DNA of 37,727 nt. It comes from Phycisphaerae bacterium (GTDB lineage Bacteria; Planctomycetota; Phycisphaerae; UBA1845). This document shows positions 14,375 to 22,442 of this stretch, in pieces. Position 1 is the first letter of the stretch, and every line of letters starts with the position of its first letter. Where the stretch lies: NCBI GenBank assembly GCA_029260025.1, contig JAJDDZ010000043.1:1-37727 (forward strand), read 5' to 3'. The translations under genes were made by a program, and so were the position numbers. The notes under the pieces are model-generated. The model was not told the origin of the DNA. It did not search any database and worked only from the letters and a program-made list of their open reading frames with translations.

Positions 14375-15064
14375 CTACCCCTTTGATCCTGCCTTCTTGG
14401 CTGCTTTCTTCTTAGGAGCGGTCTTTTTCCTAACTTTCTTGCGCAACGTTTTCACGGACTTGGGAGTCGCCTTGAGAGTTTCTAGCACCAAGCAGGTTTC
14501 TTTCGCCTTGTCGGCCGCGACATGACGCTCTAGAAACGCCTGGACATCCGCGCGATTGGCAGACGGATGTACGAGGTCGCTTTCACGAAGAACCGCTAGG
14601 ACGCGATCGCCCACGGGGATCGCATGTCCGCCCAAACTCCACAAAATGACCGAGGCAGAAGCATATGCATCGATGCCGTCGAGCTGTTCAAAATAGTGCC
14701 TCGCTTCGCGCTTTCCAACCGTCTTGAGACGGTCGAGCGATACGACATGCTCCTGATTGTAAATCGCGTTCAGCGCACGAATCAGCTCACCACTGCGAAG
14801 CTCAGCCTGTGCGACCTGGTTCCCGATCACACGATGAATTTCCGAAGGATAAGAAGCTCGAACTTCGTTCCAATCGACCATCACCTCATTGAGTTTCTTG
14901 ATCGCGCGAGACGCCGGACCATCACCAGACTCAACCCCCAAGATCGCAGTCGCCAGGCGCTCGATCGGATCTGGCCACTCCGGAAGCTCCGGAATAGCTG
15001 CCCCTTGCTTCAGCTTTGTGTACGCTCGTTTGAATCTACCCGCGTATCGCGTCCCATCTTTCAT
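14375..15064 (-). CDS. HhH-GPD (endonuclease III fold) protein with lysine-rich tail
   Basis: The 229-aa protein resembles the helical core of endonuclease III/HhH-GPD DNA glycosylases. Helices occur in the right order, a helix-hairpin-helix-like segment FEQLDGIDAYASASVIL lies at about 125-141, and an aspartate in AIPVGDRVL (Asp153) sits where Nth has its catalytic Asp. The catalytic lysine of bifunctional Nth (LPGVGRKTA) appears replaced by Tyr (LDGIDAYAS). The four cysteines of the [4Fe-4S] loop are absent. The C terminus (205-229) is an Ala/Lys/Pro tail like histone H1 (KKTAPKKKAAKKA). The start overlaps the rbfA stop by 4 bp (ATGA), so it is the last gene of the nusA operon. Monofunctional glycosylase or structural DNA binder are both possible. 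Confidence 0.65.
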   Translation of the reverse strand: MKDGTRYAGRFKRAYTKLKQGAAIPELPEWPDPIERLATAILGVESGDGPASRAIKKLNEVMVDWNEVRASYPSEIHRVIGNQVAQAELRSGELIRALNAIYNQEHVVSLDRLKTVGKREARHYFEQLDGIDAYASASVILWSLGGHAIPVGDRVLAVLRESDLVHPSANRADVQAFLERHVAADKAKETCLVLETLKATPKSVKTLRKKVRKKTAPKKKAAKKAGSKG

Positions 15065-15540
15065 CGATTCACCTCATCTGGACCCTGGCCCGTCGGGTTG
15101 GTGTCGCGCTCGAGATCGGGAGCCGAGGGTTTTTCATCGCATCGATCCGCAATCTCACCGGCCACTGCCTCATTCTCGACGACGGTCTCGTCACGCTCGA
15201 CACGATTCGCCTCTATCTGCTCTAGTGTACGAATAACCCGCTTCTGTTGTTCATCAAGCTCCATGCGAAGCTCGGGACACTGCTTTAAGTTTAGTTCCTT
15301 GGCGACCATCCGTTGCAAGTACCCACGCGCGCTTTTCATCGCGGAGATCGTCTTGCGCTCGTCCGCCTCCCCCGTGGGAACCGTCACATAGACGATAGCC
15401 GTAAGGAGGTCTGGACCGACCTCAACACGACTAATCGTCGTTAGCGGAGCGATGCGCGGATCACTCAAGCGACGCGCAATCCCTTCGCTCACGATTTCTC
15501 GGATGGCGTTGGCTACTCTTTCCCTTCGATACTGCTTCAT
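15061..15540 (-). CDS. rbfA: Ribosome-binding factor A
   Basis: RbfA helps mature the 30S subunit at the 16S rRNA 5' end. The family features are the start MKQYRRERVANAIREIVSEGI, then DPRIAPLTTISRVEVGPDL and AIVYVTV (the KH-type fold), and the helix around RGYLQRMVAKELNLKQCPELRMELDE. A 45-residue acidic extension follows the KH core. Two starts are possible. ATG 15540 (159 aa) matches the usual N terminus. TTG 15570, used by the ORF track, adds ten residues and has AAGAGG about 7 nt upstream. I keep the ATG but cannot exclude the TTG. It follows ylxP closely and overlaps the HhH-GPD gene by ATGA. Confidence 0.92.
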   Translation of the reverse strand: MKQYRRERVANAIREIVSEGIARRLSDPRIAPLTTISRVEVGPDLLTAIVYVTVPTGEADERKTISAMKSARGYLQRMVAKELNLKQCPELRMELDEQQKRVIRTLEQIEANRVERDETVVENEAVAGEIADRCDEKPSAPDLERDTNPTGQGPDEVNR

Positions 15541-15581
15541 TGAATCTTCAAAACCTATCCGCACACGCAAGGCATGCCTCT

Positions 15582-15863
15582 TTAGTAAAACTCCCGCTCA
15601 TAATCGAGTAGGCTGACCATTCGAGCTTCGCGAACCATGTCAACCATCTGGTCGAACTGCGAGTGCATTGCTCGCGAATCGGTCGAAACCATCGCCAACC
15701 CAATCGTGCACCGCTTGTGAACGTCGTGGTGGTCCACCTCGGCGACCGAAACGTTGAACCGATCGCGAAGCTTCTGCTTAAGTCCCTTGATGGCATGCCG
15801 TTTGTCCTTCAACGACCGTGCTTCCAAGATCGCCAGATCGATCCGAAGGACGCCGACGATCAT
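15582..15863 (-). CDS. ylxP: DUF503/YlxP family protein
   Basis: This 93-aa protein shows the typical DUF503 pattern MIVGVLRIDLAILEARSLKDKRH, then IKGLKQKLRDRFNVSVAEVDHHD and a C-terminal strand region. In many bacteria this gene sits between infB and rbfA, exactly as here apart from one inserted gene. Its precise function is not settled; a role in ribosome assembly or RNA binding is assumed from its place. Its start codon overlaps the stop of the upstream Zn-ribbon gene by 4 bp (15860-15863, ATGA), which shows translational coupling. Confidence 0.9.
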   Translation of the reverse strand: MIVGVLRIDLAILEARSLKDKRHAIKGLKQKLRDRFNVSVAEVDHHDVHKRCTIGLAMVSTDSRAMHSQFDQMVDMVREARMVSLLDYEREFY

Positions 15864-17083: not shown

Positions 17084-19810
17084 CTACAGACTTCTGGCGG
17101 TTTGAATAATCTCGTAAGTCTCAATACGATCGCCGGCGTGGATGTCGTCGAACCCTTCAAGGCGAACGCCGCACTCCATACCAGATCGAACTGTCTTCAC
17201 ATCATCTTTTAGGTGTCGCAGCGACGACATCTTGCAACCTTCACGTATGACAACGCCGTCACGAATGACTTTTGCCAAATGCGTTCGGTCAACCAATCCG
17301 TCCGTTACATAGGAACCCGCCACAGGTCCAAGTTTTGTGATACGGAAAATCTGCCGCACGTCGATAACCGATCGACCTTCGATTTTCTCGTCTGGGGTAA
17401 GAAGACCAGACAACGCCTTCCGAATGTCGTCGCAAGCGTCATAAATCACGCGATAAGGGCGAACATCGACGCCATGCTGCTCAGCGAGTCGTCGAGCGCC
17501 AACGGACGTCTCAACTCGAAAGGCAACGATGATCGCTTTTGAAGTTGCTGCCAGCAAGATGTCGCTATCGTTGACAGGCCCAACCCCAGCGTGGCGAATC
17601 CCTAACCTAACTTCGTCAGAAGGGATATCACCAAGTGAAGCACGCAGCGCAGTCAAACTACCATCAACATCCGCCTTGAGAATAATATTTAGCTCTGGAA
17701 CTTCATCGCTCGTACGCTGCTGGAACATGTGTTCCAAAGACATGACCTTTCGCGACTGCACTCTGCTCTGATCAAGGCGATATTGTTTCGTCTCAGAAGC
17801 AATTTGCTTCGCCCGGGTCAGTGCTTCCACCGCAAAAAATTTGTCCCCAGATGCTGGAACGTCGTCCAGCCCCCAAACTTCCGCCGGAATCCCAGGCCCC
17901 GCTTCTTTCATCCTGTTGCCCCGGTCGTCCAGAAGCGCACGGACTTTGCCGGCTGCGTTCCCGCAGACAACGAAATCGCCTACACAAAGCGTCCCCTCAA
18001 CAACCAAAATATGCGCAACCGACCCCACCCCGACTTTCGTCTCGGCCTCAAGAACAGTTGCGTACGCTGGAAGAGTCGCGTCCGCCTCCAACTCAAGAAC
18101 ATCACTAAGATCCGCTAGGTGCTCGACAAGTTCTACGACGCCATCGCCCGTGATCGCGGACGTCGGAAGAACATCGGTTTCCCCGCCCCAGTCGCCGCTC
18201 GGCGTCAGTCCGTGCTCAGCGAGCTGTCCATAGATTCGCAGTTTGTTCTGATCTCCCAAGTCGGACTTGTTCATCGCAACAACCACCGGAACCTCAGCAG
18301 CCTTGGCGTGATTGATCGCCTCGATCGTTTGAGGCATAATTCCGTCGTCCGCTGCGACCACAAGCACTACCACGTCCGTAACCTGCGCACCGCGCTGACG
18401 CATCGCCGTAAAGGCTTCGTGGCCCGGCGTGTCTAGAAACGTAACAGGCCCATGTGCCGCCAGAAGATGGTACGACCCAATGTGCTGCGTAATTCCGCCG
18501 TCTTCACCAGCAACCACGCGCGTTTTCCGTATACGATCCATCAAGCTCGTTTTGCCGTGATCAACATGCCCAAGAAGCGTGACGATAGGCGGTCGCGACG
18601 TCAGATTGGCCCGCTCGCGCTTCTGATACTCCTCAACCAGTTCGTCAAGCATCGTCTTAGCCGGGATGACCTCAAGCTCAATCCCAAAGTGCAGGGCGAG
18701 CAGCTGCGCCGTTTCTGTCGGCAGCGTCATGTTGACATTGCCAAGGATCCCGTGCTCATCCCGCAAGATCTTAACGAGCTGCATGAAATTCAGCGCCGTC
18801 TCAGAGCAGAATTCCTTCATACGGATAGGTTCGTGTACCGTTGCATTTGTCTTTGGGCCTACGTCAAACTGTTGACCACCTTGTCCGCCATGCTGTGTCG
18901 CCCGGCGACGATGAATTCGACGACCGGTCGCGCCAGCCAAACGCTCGCGACGTTCGGCAAGATCGCGATCGCGTCTCTCGCTCGGAGTAGCGTCACGCGA
19001 ACCACCGCGTCCACGGCGCCGACCGCCCTTCTCGCTCTCAGGCGCAGCGCCAGGCGCGGAACTGGGACCACCGCCACCGCCACCGCCGGGCTGAGGACGC
19101 GGTGCGCGTCGAGGGGGCGCAGGGTGGTACTCAGGAGCTTCGTACCGAACAACGCGAGGCCCGGAAAGCTTCGCAGCAGCAGGAACATTTTGCGGTCCTG
19201 CAGGGGTGACAGGCTGCGGCCTGCTATCTTCCTCTAGATCGTCAGTTGCCTCAGAAGTTTCCACCGCTTCGGGGACCTCAGTCGTCACAATATCCGCCGA
19301 CGGAACCGATGAAACAGAATTCTCATCCGAAACTGGTGCAACCTCCGCAACTTCAACTAGAGGCGCCGTGGAATCTACAACTTCCTCGCAAGTCTCAACC
19401 ACGACTGACTCAGGCTCATCGGATAGTGGGCTGACAATTTCTTCAACCGGCAAAACATCCGCGGCAGTCGGAGGTAGTTCGGCAACGGCAGTCGATGCAG
19501 TGGCCTCAGCGTTCTCAACTTCGTCGTTCTTCGTGGCTGCCTTTCGTTTTGGCTTAACCTGAACCTTCTTGAGATCGATCCGCTTCGACGTCTCCATCAC
19601 GGTCGCGTGCTCGCCCTCACTGAACCACTCAGAAATCGTCGCGTGCAAACCCGCACTGAGCGTAGACATGTGATTCTTCACAGTATCAATGCCTTCGGCT
19701 TTGCACTTCTCGATAATTGTCTTACTGGTGACGTTCAATTCCTTCGCAAGAAGGTGAACACGCAATTTCTCAGCCAACGTCAATCTCCGTGCCTTAATCG
19801 CGGCAACCAT
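17084..19810 (-). CDS. infB: Translation initiation factor IF-2
   Basis: IF-2 is the GTPase that brings initiator tRNA to the 30S subunit and promotes subunit joining. In order the 908-aa protein has an IF2_N module (RVHLLAKELNVTSKTIIEKC), a long low-complexity Glu/Val/Thr-rich and Gly/Arg-rich linker, and a second IF2_N module (IRMKEFCSETALNFMQLVKIL). The GTPase domain follows, with GHVDHGKT, DTPGHEAF and NKSD. The beta-barrel and C1/C2 domains, which bind fMet-tRNA, complete it. The ORF track uses GTG 19822; ATG 19810 gives the typical MVAAIKARRLTLAEKLRV start. Neither has a clear Shine-Dalgarno. It follows nusA by about 40 bp in the same operon. Confidence 0.97.
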   Translation of the reverse strand: MVAAIKARRLTLAEKLRVHLLAKELNVTSKTIIEKCKAEGIDTVKNHMSTLSAGLHATISEWFSEGEHATVMETSKRIDLKKVQVKPKRKAATKNDEVENAEATASTAVAELPPTAADVLPVEEIVSPLSDEPESVVVETCEEVVDSTAPLVEVAEVAPVSDENSVSSVPSADIVTTEVPEAVETSEATDDLEEDSRPQPVTPAGPQNVPAAAKLSGPRVVRYEAPEYHPAPPRRAPRPQPGGGGGGGPSSAPGAAPESEKGGRRRGRGGSRDATPSERRDRDLAERRERLAGATGRRIHRRRATQHGGQGGQQFDVGPKTNATVHEPIRMKEFCSETALNFMQLVKILRDEHGILGNVNMTLPTETAQLLALHFGIELEVIPAKTMLDELVEEYQKRERANLTSRPPIVTLLGHVDHGKTSLMDRIRKTRVVAGEDGGITQHIGSYHLLAAHGPVTFLDTPGHEAFTAMRQRGAQVTDVVVLVVAADDGIMPQTIEAINHAKAAEVPVVVAMNKSDLGDQNKLRIYGQLAEHGLTPSGDWGGETDVLPTSAITGDGVVELVEHLADLSDVLELEADATLPAYATVLEAETKVGVGSVAHILVVEGTLCVGDFVVCGNAAGKVRALLDDRGNRMKEAGPGIPAEVWGLDDVPASGDKFFAVEALTRAKQIASETKQYRLDQSRVQSRKVMSLEHMFQQRTSDEVPELNIILKADVDGSLTALRASLGDIPSDEVRLGIRHAGVGPVNDSDILLAATSKAIIVAFRVETSVGARRLAEQHGVDVRPYRVIYDACDDIRKALSGLLTPDEKIEGRSVIDVRQIFRITKLGPVAGSYVTDGLVDRTHLAKVIRDGVVIREGCKMSSLRHLKDDVKTVRSGMECGVRLEGFDDIHAGDRIETYEIIQTARSL

Positions 19811-19850
19811 TTTCACGCACACCCGATCGATCGGGCGAGCTTGCTTCTAT

Positions 19851-21320
19851 TTATGAGGGCTGTTCTTCTAGCTCCTCGTCCGTTCCGGTCGCGTGGGTCT
19901 TAACCTCATTACCCTCGACGACCGGCTCTCCAACCTCTGCTTCAGGCGAAACCACGACATCGGTCACTGGGGATTCATCCGCCGTCTCCAACGTACCGCC
20001 ATCAAGGGCGTGAATCTCGGCACTAGCAATCTCGGTCGCATCAACCTCAGTGGCCCCAGCCTCAGCGGTCTCGACGCTTTTCTCCGCAAGGGACGGACCC
20101 GCTCCCGCAAACTCAGACCGCATCGACTCGCGGGATTCTTGCTCAAGTTTTTTTGCTTCAGCAGCCTCCGCCGCAAGCGCATCGGCCGCACCATTAGCAG
20201 CCTCGACCATCGTCTTAGCGAGCTCCGGATCGACGCCGAGTTCGTTTGTGAGCGGGTCAGCGCCGACAGCCTTCACGTCGGCAACGGAAATCACGCCCAT
20301 CGCCAGAAGTTTATCAAGGAGAACATCATCAACGCCGTCAATGATCTTCAGTACTCGTTCCATCCCGTCCATGTTGCGGTCATAATCTGCTGGAGTAAGA
20401 ATATCGATGTCCCAACCAGTCAACCGAGCACCGAGTCGGACGTTTTGCCCGCGCTTCCCGATCGCAAGGGACAACTGATCCTCGTCAACGACCACCGTCG
20501 CACGACCCAGCTCAAAGCACAGAAAAGTCTCTTTCACCTCAGCCGGCTTAAGCGCGTTGCTAATTAGCACCTGGGAGGATTCGTTCCATCGAACAATGTC
20601 GATCTTTTCGCCACCAAGCTCATCAACAATGTTCCGTATGCGACTTCCGCGCACGCCGACGCAAGCGCCGACCGGATCAACCTTCATGTCGATCGACGAC
20701 ACCGCGATTTTCGTGCGATAGCCTGCCTCACGAGCCAAAGCCCGAACCTCGATCACTTTTTCGGCGACCTCAGGGACTTCCAGTTCAAAGAGCTTACGGA
20801 TGTAGTCCGGGTGAGTTTGGGTAAGAACGATCCGCACCTGATTCGTTTCTTCGCGAACGTCAAGAATCATCCCCCGAATCCGCTCGCCAGGATGGTGCAT
20901 CTGACCAGGAATCTGCTCGCTTCGGGGCATGAACGCCTCAACACGCCCAAGATTTACAGTAAGCCCCCCGCCCTCATATCTGGTAACCGTACCGGTCACA
21001 ATCGTTCCAACGAGTTGCGAATACTCATCGAAGATTGAATTGCGCTCGTCTTCTCGGATCCGCTGAATCATCACTTGCTTAGCAGTCTGCGCGGCGATTC
21101 GACCCAACGACTGCATATCGATCGGCTTTCCTGCGACAAAGGCTTCAATCACCCCAGTCTGGCGATCGATCGAGGCGGAAGCTTCCTCCTCTTCGCCGCA
21201 ACCAAAGTGCTTGCGCGCGGCTGAAACAATCGCTGCTTCAAGGTCAGCAAAGACGCTCTCTTTGTCGATCGCCTTGTCTCGACTAATCGAGTCAATGAAT
21301 CTGATCAGATCCGTATTCAT
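19851..21320 (-). CDS. nusA: Transcription termination/antitermination factor NusA
   Basis: NusA binds RNA polymerase and modulates pausing, termination and antitermination. The start MNTDLIRFIDSISRDKAIDKE is typical. Next come the N-terminal polymerase-binding domain, an S1 domain (GTIVTGTVTRYEGGGLTVNLG), KH domains (GACVGVRGSRIRNIVDELGGEKIDIV and LAIGKRGQNVRLGARLTGWDI), and a HhH-like C-terminal segment (IDGVDDVLLDKLLAMGVISVADV). A 100-residue acidic Ala/Glu tail ends the protein. The ORF track extends 64 codons upstream through the leader hairpins; that part has no family similarity, so ATG 21320 (489 aa) is used. It is first in the operon. rimP, the usual upstream partner, is absent. Confidence 0.96.
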   Translation of the reverse strand: MNTDLIRFIDSISRDKAIDKESVFADLEAAIVSAARKHFGCGEEEEASASIDRQTGVIEAFVAGKPIDMQSLGRIAAQTAKQVMIQRIREDERNSIFDEYSQLVGTIVTGTVTRYEGGGLTVNLGRVEAFMPRSEQIPGQMHHPGERIRGMILDVREETNQVRIVLTQTHPDYIRKLFELEVPEVAEKVIEVRALAREAGYRTKIAVSSIDMKVDPVGACVGVRGSRIRNIVDELGGEKIDIVRWNESSQVLISNALKPAEVKETFLCFELGRATVVVDEDQLSLAIGKRGQNVRLGARLTGWDIDILTPADYDRNMDGMERVLKIIDGVDDVLLDKLLAMGVISVADVKAVGADPLTNELGVDPELAKTMVEAANGAADALAAEAAEAKKLEQESRESMRSEFAGAGPSLAEKSVETAEAGATEVDATEIASAEIHALDGGTLETADESPVTDVVVSPEAEVGEPVVEGNEVKTHATGTDEELEEQPS

Positions 21321-21342: not shown

Positions 21343-21374
21343 AGCAGCCGTCGCCAAATCAGGCGACCGCTGCT
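21343..21374 (-). promoter_or_regulatory. Second leader hairpin directly before nusA
   Basis: On the minus strand AGCAGC-G-GTCGCC and GGCGAC-G-GCTGCT pair across the loop TGATTT, giving 12 bp with one G/G mismatch. It ends 22 nt before the nusA ATG and just upstream of GGAAGGA. It could hide or expose the ribosome-binding region, or act with the terminator hairpin upstream. Confidence 0.55.
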
Positions 21375-21381
21375 AGTCAAC

Positions 21382-21413
21382 AAAAAAACGTGGGCGCAAA
21401 ACGCGATCCCACG
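21382..21413 (-). terminator. Intrinsic terminator in the nusA leader (attenuator candidate)
   Basis: On the minus strand CGTGGG (21413..21408) pairs with CCCACG (21394..21389). An inner CGC/GCG stem with loop GTTTT lies inside it, and an uninterrupted T7 follows (21388..21382). This is a canonical intrinsic terminator, yet it points toward nusA and lies about 60 bp before its start codon. It either attenuates the operon or ends an independent short transcript. Confidence 0.72.
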
Positions 21414-21712
21414 CGGGCAAATAACTGCTTGACCTGGATGGGGCAATCTTAGTGCATCACCGCGCTCCGCATGATCCAAACAGAACCCGCTGGTCGGCCC
21501 TATTCCGCACAAACAACCTGCGATGTTTGCAAGACCTAACCATGTTGCGAGAATCTCGTCATCACTTCACCAAACACGCCCCCGCTCATCCTGGGAACGC
21601 TCTTCAATAGCTCAACCTGACGCCCGTACCCAGATACCGGCACGCTAGGCGCAGAACCACACCGTCTCCGACTCAACGAGAGTACGCAGACAATCTGTTT
21701 CGAGCGAAATCC

Positions 21713-21740
21713 ATTGTAATGGCCCTCGCTCATGCGTCAA
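21713..21740 (-). promoter_or_regulatory. Promoter for the nusA leader or a small RNA
   Basis: On the minus strand TTGACG (21740..21735) and TACAAT (21718..21713) are separated by 16 bp. Each matches the sigma-70 hexamer at five of six positions. The -10 is embedded in a small dyad CCATTgtAATGG. The predicted start is near 21706, giving about 325 nt to the terminator and about 386 nt to the nusA ATG. Confidence 0.55.
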
Positions 21741-21926: not shown

Positions 21927-22442
21927 ATGCGAAAAATATGGAAATCCCTATCCAGAAACACTGCCCCCCTCTTCGGTATCATCCTGATCGCCTCCGGCGG
22001 GTGCGAGTTGGCGATACCGGATGAAACAACGCCGGATAGCGAAATCGGACGACCTGCCGAGCAGTTCGTAACCATCGCCTTCCGAAATCTCTCAACTGTC
22101 AATACGGTAGATGTAGAATTCCATGCGGTGACATCGGTGGAAGTCAGCCTCCCCGAGGGGCTATTCACTGACGAAAACCGGGTGTCGGAAAGCTTAGGCG
22201 TAGCAGGAACCGGGTTGCTCATCCCAGGAGCAACCGACATCCTTGAGATCTCCTGCACAGAAAACCTGGTCATCGGAACCGCAGGCGGCACATTCCTCGA
22301 CAATGAAACCGGCGAACTCAATGGACGCGGGGAACCACGGTGGCTGGACGCGACTTCGGCGGGACTCTGTGGCGCGATCGTCGGATTTACGTTTGAGAGC
22401 AGTGGCGATACATTCGCAACCAAAGTCGAGATCAGACGCTAA
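21927..22442 (+). CDS. Small putative lipoprotein of unknown function
   Basis: The 171-aa product has a basic start (MRKIWKSLSRN), a hydrophobic stretch and ASGGC (Cys26), a slightly atypical lipobox. The mature part begins with acidic and Thr-rich sequence and then reads as a compact beta-rich domain (VTIAFRNLSTVNTVDVEF, then repeated strand-like segments). Two further cysteines (in LEISCTEN and SAGLCGAI) could form a disulfide. I recognise no family. A perfect ribosome-binding site suggests good expression. It lies 72 bp before the FHA-GAF-PP2C gene on the same strand, so cotranscription is possible. Between them is an imperfect inverted repeat around CGCCATGGCG (22459-22471). Confidence 0.75.
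   Translation: MRKIWKSLSRNTAPLFGIILIASGGCELAIPDETTPDSEIGRPAEQFVTIAFRNLSTVNTVDVEFHAVTSVEVSLPEGLFTDENRVSESLGVAGTGLLIPGATDILEISCTENLVIGTAGGTFLDNETGELNGRGEPRWLDATSAGLCGAIVGFTFESSGDTFATKVEIRR

Follow-up and report, generated by a model that had tools for sequence, protein, structure and literature searches.

The nusA leader and its operon

The window that we analysed, a stretch of 37,727 nucleotides of contig JAJDDZ010000043.1 from a Phycisphaerae bacterium, carries on its minus strand an operon that has nusA at its head and continues with infB, an uncharacterised gene, a DUF503 gene and rbfA (Table 1). No rimP lies in front of nusA in the window, and a search with the RimP_N profile found no match in the genome (89% complete) while 10 of 14 control genomes were positive; rimP may thus be absent from this lineage. 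On the other side of the leader the neighbouring gene (21927-22442, plus strand), encoding a lipoprotein-like product (MRKIWKSLSRN...ASGGCE), is divergent and shares its intergenic region with the nusA leader, so that the start of the nusA transcript must lie within this gap.

Table 1. Features of the nusA leader and operon, with their positions in the window
Feature	Position	Strand	Evidence
Promoter-like site TTGACG-N16-TACAAT	21713..21740	minus	10/12 matches; counterpart at the equivalent site of the sister species
Shine-Dalgarno GGAG of the minigene	21465..21468	minus	GGAG-like motif 4-10 nt 5' of ATG in the leaders of the order
Two-codon minigene ATG-CAC-TAA (Met-His-stop)	21449..21457	minus	Comparison of nusA leaders
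Intrinsic terminator CGTGGG...CCCACG + T7	21382..21413	minus	Before nusA in relatives
Second hairpin AGCAGC-GTCGCC...GGCGAC-GCTGCT	21343..21374	minus	Folds well
nusA	19851..21320	minus, ATG at 21320	Pfam NusA_N, S1, KH
infB (translation initiation factor IF2)	17084..19822	minus	Pfam IF-2, GTP_EFTU
DUF503 gene, same operon as nusA	15582..15863	minus	Pfam PF04456
rbfA	15061..15570	minus	Pfam RBFA

The original prediction, made from this sequence without database searches, had described a promoter, an intrinsic terminator and a second hairpin in this leader, and all three are found where it had placed them. The promoter-like site consists of a -35 element (TTGACG, 21740-21735), a 16-nt spacer and a -10 element (TACAAT, 21718-21713). 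Because a scan over 2.3 kb found one such site when 1.3 ± 1.1 were expected by chance, the match alone proves little; the sister species, G001, presents TTGACG-N16-TATACT at the equivalent place, and the divergent neighbour is likewise in keeping with a promoter here. The terminator comprises CGTGGG (21413-21408), CCCACG (21394-21389) and a run of seven T (21388-21382). Terminator-like sites are no rarer in this DNA than chance would have them (3 found, 2.3 expected), and the weight of this element comes from its conservation: in a DNA search of 60 relatives, besides the sister species, it was mainly the terminator that matched, always just 5' of nusA, the GTGGG...CCCAC stem is kept before nusA across the order, and nearly all the relatives examined carry a terminator ahead of this gene. 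The second hairpin is no family-wide feature, a similar one with changed bases being present in G001 only.

Comparison also delimits the part of the leader that has been maintained. The upstream 240 nt are conserved in the nearest species, G001, alone, and beyond that species conservation is limited to the stretch of about 85 nt from the ribosome-binding site through the T-run. A candidate second ORF of eight codons (ATGACGAGATTCTCGCAACATGGTTAG, MTRFSQHG*, 21562-21536, minus strand) sits upstream in a 39-nt block identical in G001, the two leaders being 77% identical overall; it is absent from all the other leaders compared. Searching Rfam at gathering and relaxed thresholds gave just chance matches for the leader (snoRNA families, Chloroflexus-1), in agreement with the earlier statement that it could not be matched to a known RNA family.

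Start-stop minigenes in the nusA leaders of the class

When the leaders of the family were compared with one another, their main conserved feature, overlooked in the original prediction, came to light: a GGAG motif, 6-8 nt, an ATG, one codon and a stop. In the window this takes the form GGAG-N7-ATG-CAC-TAA (GGAGCGCGGTG-ATG-CAC-TAA, 21468-21449, minus strand), located 36 nt ahead of the terminator's GTGGG, and all the elements that define a two-codon minigene (Shine-Dalgarno sequence, start codon, one codon and stop) are present. We also considered the GCACTAAG string as a -10 promoter element and dropped this reading, the clades having just the Shine-Dalgarno sequence, the ATG and the stop in common.

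The evidence is comparative and comes from metagenome-assembled and other genomes, confined to Planctomycetota and spanning 67 genera in the sample of the order; the leaders are related to one another and their counts are not independent. Of the 168 nusA leaders taken from Phycisphaerae and kin, 120 contain a Shine-Dalgarno sequence followed by ATG-NNN-stop, compared with 3.2 in dinucleotide shuffles, and about one fifth of the class leaders have no recognisable minigene. Out-of-frame spacings between ATG and stop occurred in 2-6 of the 168 leaders (2, 2, 5 and 5 for N1, N2, N4 and N5, respectively), as in the shuffles, and the other in-frame spacings, N0 (8 leaders) and N6 (14 leaders), were raised. 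Because this count itself looks for the stop, we recounted 72 leaders of the order to which the window belongs after choosing the ATG by its Shine-Dalgarno sequence and its place before the terminator, ignoring stops. The first in-frame stop was then the second codon in 5 leaders, the third in 62 and the fourth in 3, so that even with the choice of ATG blind to stops 67 of the 72 leaders terminate at the second or third codon; in the remaining two (G018 and G010) the minigene is present and a different ATG was picked.

The identity of the codons is informative as to what has been maintained. Stop usage in the leaders of the order is even (TAA, TAG and TGA in 21, 23 and 23, respectively), and the second codon is most often CGN or CAC, with GTN, AGT, AAC, TCN and CCT also found, to which the rest of the class adds GCC, ACC, AGG or GGN. 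Five genera (g1, g3, g5, g9 and g24) present more than one stop codon at the minigene site and every one of these changes is from stop to stop, and one leader (G040) has TGG where the stop is expected and TAG as the next codon. Pure start-stops (ATGTAG or ATGTAA) with a G-rich Shine-Dalgarno sequence occur in G015, G065, G066, G064, G030 and likewise L182. The stop usage, the variable second codon and the stop-to-stop changes point to selection for early termination of translation rather than for a peptide or an RNA shape. Comparison thus shows that a putative ribosome-binding site and AUG meeting a stop after zero to two codons are under selection in these leaders.

Spacing between minigene and terminator, and their distribution

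The distance between the minigene and the terminator is also maintained. From AUG to U-tract it is 71 nt (IQR 69-73) in the family of the window and 94.5 nt (91-98) elsewhere in the order, the stop being 37.9 ± 2.8 nt from the terminator stem in the former, while the distance from terminator to nusA is loose (132.6 ± 46.1 nt, range 54 to 249). Many of the longer-distance leaders have an extra GC-rich hairpin between minigene and terminator, and in many folds from the other families of the order this hairpin may keep the effective spacing constant. When the whole module was sought as one pattern in 100 whole genomes, covering only terminators of the GTGGG type and an N7 Shine-Dalgarno spacing, 29 of the 30 matches were directly 5' of nusA; the single match elsewhere has TGG in the "stop" position, and the reversed pattern gave one match. 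In the rest of the class a hairpin with a T-run was found at most 170 nt from 31 of 65 minigenes, a low proportion partly because terminators there are weaker or further off. Taken together, these comparisons show that the distance between the putative minigene and the terminator is under clade-specific selection and that the module belongs to nusA.

Other groups show the two elements in different combinations. Outside the class most of the other sampled families have no clear minigene, and several carry a terminator of the AGTGGG...CCCACT type before nusA. In one family of another class of the phylum (f40), ATGTAA or ATGTAG is present in 13 of 17 sampled leaders, 122-143 nt before the terminator and 162 to 327 nt from nusA, with a clear Shine-Dalgarno sequence in 12 (0.4 in shuffles). 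Conversely, in family f4, of the same order as the window, all 15 leaders examined are without minigene and keep a terminator, so the two elements are separable. The f4 terminator differs in sequence (GGGTCGC...GCGGCCC) and lies near nusA (for example, in L079, L081, L083-L085 and L089-L097); this family is a natural loss of the minigene that can be used as a comparison. As regards local folds, many Phycisphaeraceae leaders (L131, L136, L142, L145 and L164) have, immediately 3' of the minigene, a hairpin of the form TGCAC...GTGCAT or a variant, and in L180, L182, L192 and L194 the loop of a local hairpin contains the minigene ATG (as in CCGCC-ATGCGGTA-GGCGG). In several Phycisphaerae such a hairpin around the ATG may gate the access of ribosomes.

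We also sought an antiterminator by comparing duplex energies with those of shuffled spacers. Pairing of the spacer with the 5' arm of the terminator was no better than in shuffled sequences (mean rank 0.555), that with the 3' arm was worse (0.689), and pairing between the Shine-Dalgarno sequence and the spacer was slightly better (0.413). The Shine-Dalgarno sequence can pair with a CUCC a few nucleotides after the minigene in G002, G018, G023, G034 and G053; sequestration by this downstream CUCC is clear in a minority of leaders and weak overall, and we rejected it as a general device. A pairing between CCCAU and GUGGG, seen by eye in the window, did not generalise to other leaders, and the consensus fold of the family contains the terminator stem alone.

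Initiation as the possible signal of a nusA attenuator

Placing these results into a model, the reading that we favour, with little more than even confidence and on comparative grounds, is that the nusA leader acts as a transcription attenuator that senses the initiation of translation. Attenuation of nusA-infB-rbfA, one of two options in the original prediction, is supported by the presence ahead of nusA of a terminator in almost every relative examined, in most cases at a set spacing from the tiny ORF. Feedback by NusA on the leader is possible, and the conserved ORF shows, as far as comparison can, that ribosomes would be a second input, one that the original prediction did not include. More tentatively, and with rather less than even confidence, we propose that the start-stop ORF holds an initiating ribosome close enough to RNA polymerase at the terminator for the two to couple, and that NusA and IF2 regulate the operon encoding them through formation of their coupled complex. 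A ribosome (a 30S initiation complex or a 70S) would load on the minigene AUG once it exits RNA polymerase and would stay there, the immediate stop blocking its advance and a quick finish not being possible. Because the stop follows the AUG at once, occupancy of the minigene would read neither elongation nor an amino acid and would report the capacity for initiation only, namely free 30S, IF2-GTP and fMet-tRNA. On arrival of RNA polymerase at the terminator, some 70 nt downstream, the parked ribosome, linked to it via NusG/NusA and perhaps through contacts between IF2 and NusA, would alter the odds of NusA-aided termination. As the operon encodes both NusA and IF2, a feedback loop is suggested.

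With regard to the sign of this effect, it is somewhat likelier that the loaded ribosome permits read-through, since in the bare leader the terminator would form of itself and our search for a competing hairpin found none. The same lack of an RNA competitor weighs against the model, in which the action of the ribosome on the terminator is conjectural, and makes a direct effect of the ribosome on RNA polymerase likelier than a trp-like switch. Such an effect is plausible: a paused RNA polymerase and a 30S initiation complex have been described in physical coupling across an mRNA spacer of more than 70 nt (PMC12820379), and an interaction between IF2 and NusA is known from E. coli cells; this contact maps to non-conserved parts, which counts against the model (PMC12297416).

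The data can be explained in other ways. Minigene and terminator could be two independent devices, the terminator being a target of NusA feedback as in the rimP-leader and the minigene holding a ribosome that shields the leader RNA from nucleases. In support of this, rimP-leader terminators are ascribed to NusA feedback (PMC2965389), examples are known of minigenes to which ribosomes bind and which stabilise mRNA, a role of this kind having been proposed for txe and LEE (PMC8708949), and family f4 has one element without the other. Mere protection, however, needs no set spacing, and that between minigene and terminator is tight while other distances drift, so we regard this explanation as unlikely. 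We give somewhat less credit still to classical ribosome-mediated attenuation, in which the minigene ribosome would choose between terminator and antiterminator hairpins: the Shine-Dalgarno-CUCC pairing available to some leaders would suit it, yet neither the ranks of spacer pairing nor a consensus fold with a single stem provide the alternative structure that it demands.

The two remaining explanations would remove either translation or nusA from the picture, and both are very improbable. If the ATG-NNN-stop string were untranslated and served in an RNA fold or as a binding site for a protein, its position in local hairpins in some clades would be understandable, but flanking sequence and fold vary between clades and what these share is what translation needs and nothing else (a Shine-Dalgarno sequence, an ATG and any stop, in frame, with zero to two codons between). 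The second option of the original prediction, a separate regulatory RNA of some 325 nt running from promoter to terminator and unrelated to nusA expression, would fit a region framed by these two signals with no gene between them; it finds hardly any credence with us, however, given that the upstream 240 nt are confined to the nearest species, that Rfam yielded no match, and that what is conserved within the stretch of about 85 nt is a reading frame rather than a structured RNA and is tied to nusA in every clade.

The initiation-sensing attenuator that we propose shares features with several known systems, the rimP-leader and the two-codon minigenes being the closest. In many bacteria rimP-nusA-infB is preceded by a conserved GGG...CCC terminator, the rimP-leader (RF01770; Naville and Gautheret 2010, PMC2965389). 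It resembles the leader studied here in the position of its terminator, the type of stem, the lack of a visible antiterminator and the proposal of NusA feedback. It differs in that here no rimP precedes nusA, and we found no leader ORF mentioned for it in that report. At its gathering score the RF01770 covariance model found no match in this leader or genome, with E. coli and B. subtilis controls positive, and none of 60 relatives exceeded the cut-off. Autoregulation of the E. coli metY-nusA-infB operon, which PMC2965389 and PMC4448216 cite, likewise concerns the same operon and feedback on termination in the leader, but no minigene is described there. Like the two-codon minigenes of txe, LEE1 ler and B. 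subtilis ycbK (PMC8708949), this leader carries a Shine-Dalgarno sequence, AUG, a codon and a stop; those minigenes act in cis on the translation or mRNA stability of single genes, whereas the present one, whose cis effect is putative, keeps a set spacing to a terminator, ahead of a universal operon and across a bacterial class. The trp and his attenuators also place a short ORF (here a putative one, recognised by comparison) before an intrinsic terminator and the controlled operon. In contrast to them, the ORF has zero to two codons, no conserved regulatory amino acid and no detectable antiterminator, and a start-stop ORF can report initiation but hardly elongation; among the hallmarks of leader-peptide attenuators, the terminator and a putatively translated ORF were found, and a regulatory codon run and an antiterminator were not. 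In the open-access literature, subscription journals aside, we came across no terminator coupled to an ORF of the start-stop or two-codon type, neither for nusA-infB nor for other genes.

The ribosome-mediated attenuators known so far respond to elongation, through amino-acid supply or drugs; there is little besides initiation that an ORF ending at its own start could read. If our interpretation is true, this would be an attenuator without peptide, codon or ligand, in which the terminator would lie at a spacing over which coupling of a 30S initiation complex with RNA polymerase is known. Such a natural and compact system would make early transcription-translation coupling and IF2 homeostasis directly testable. 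Start-stop ORFs are below the size that gene finders consider, and this class of elements may be more widespread.
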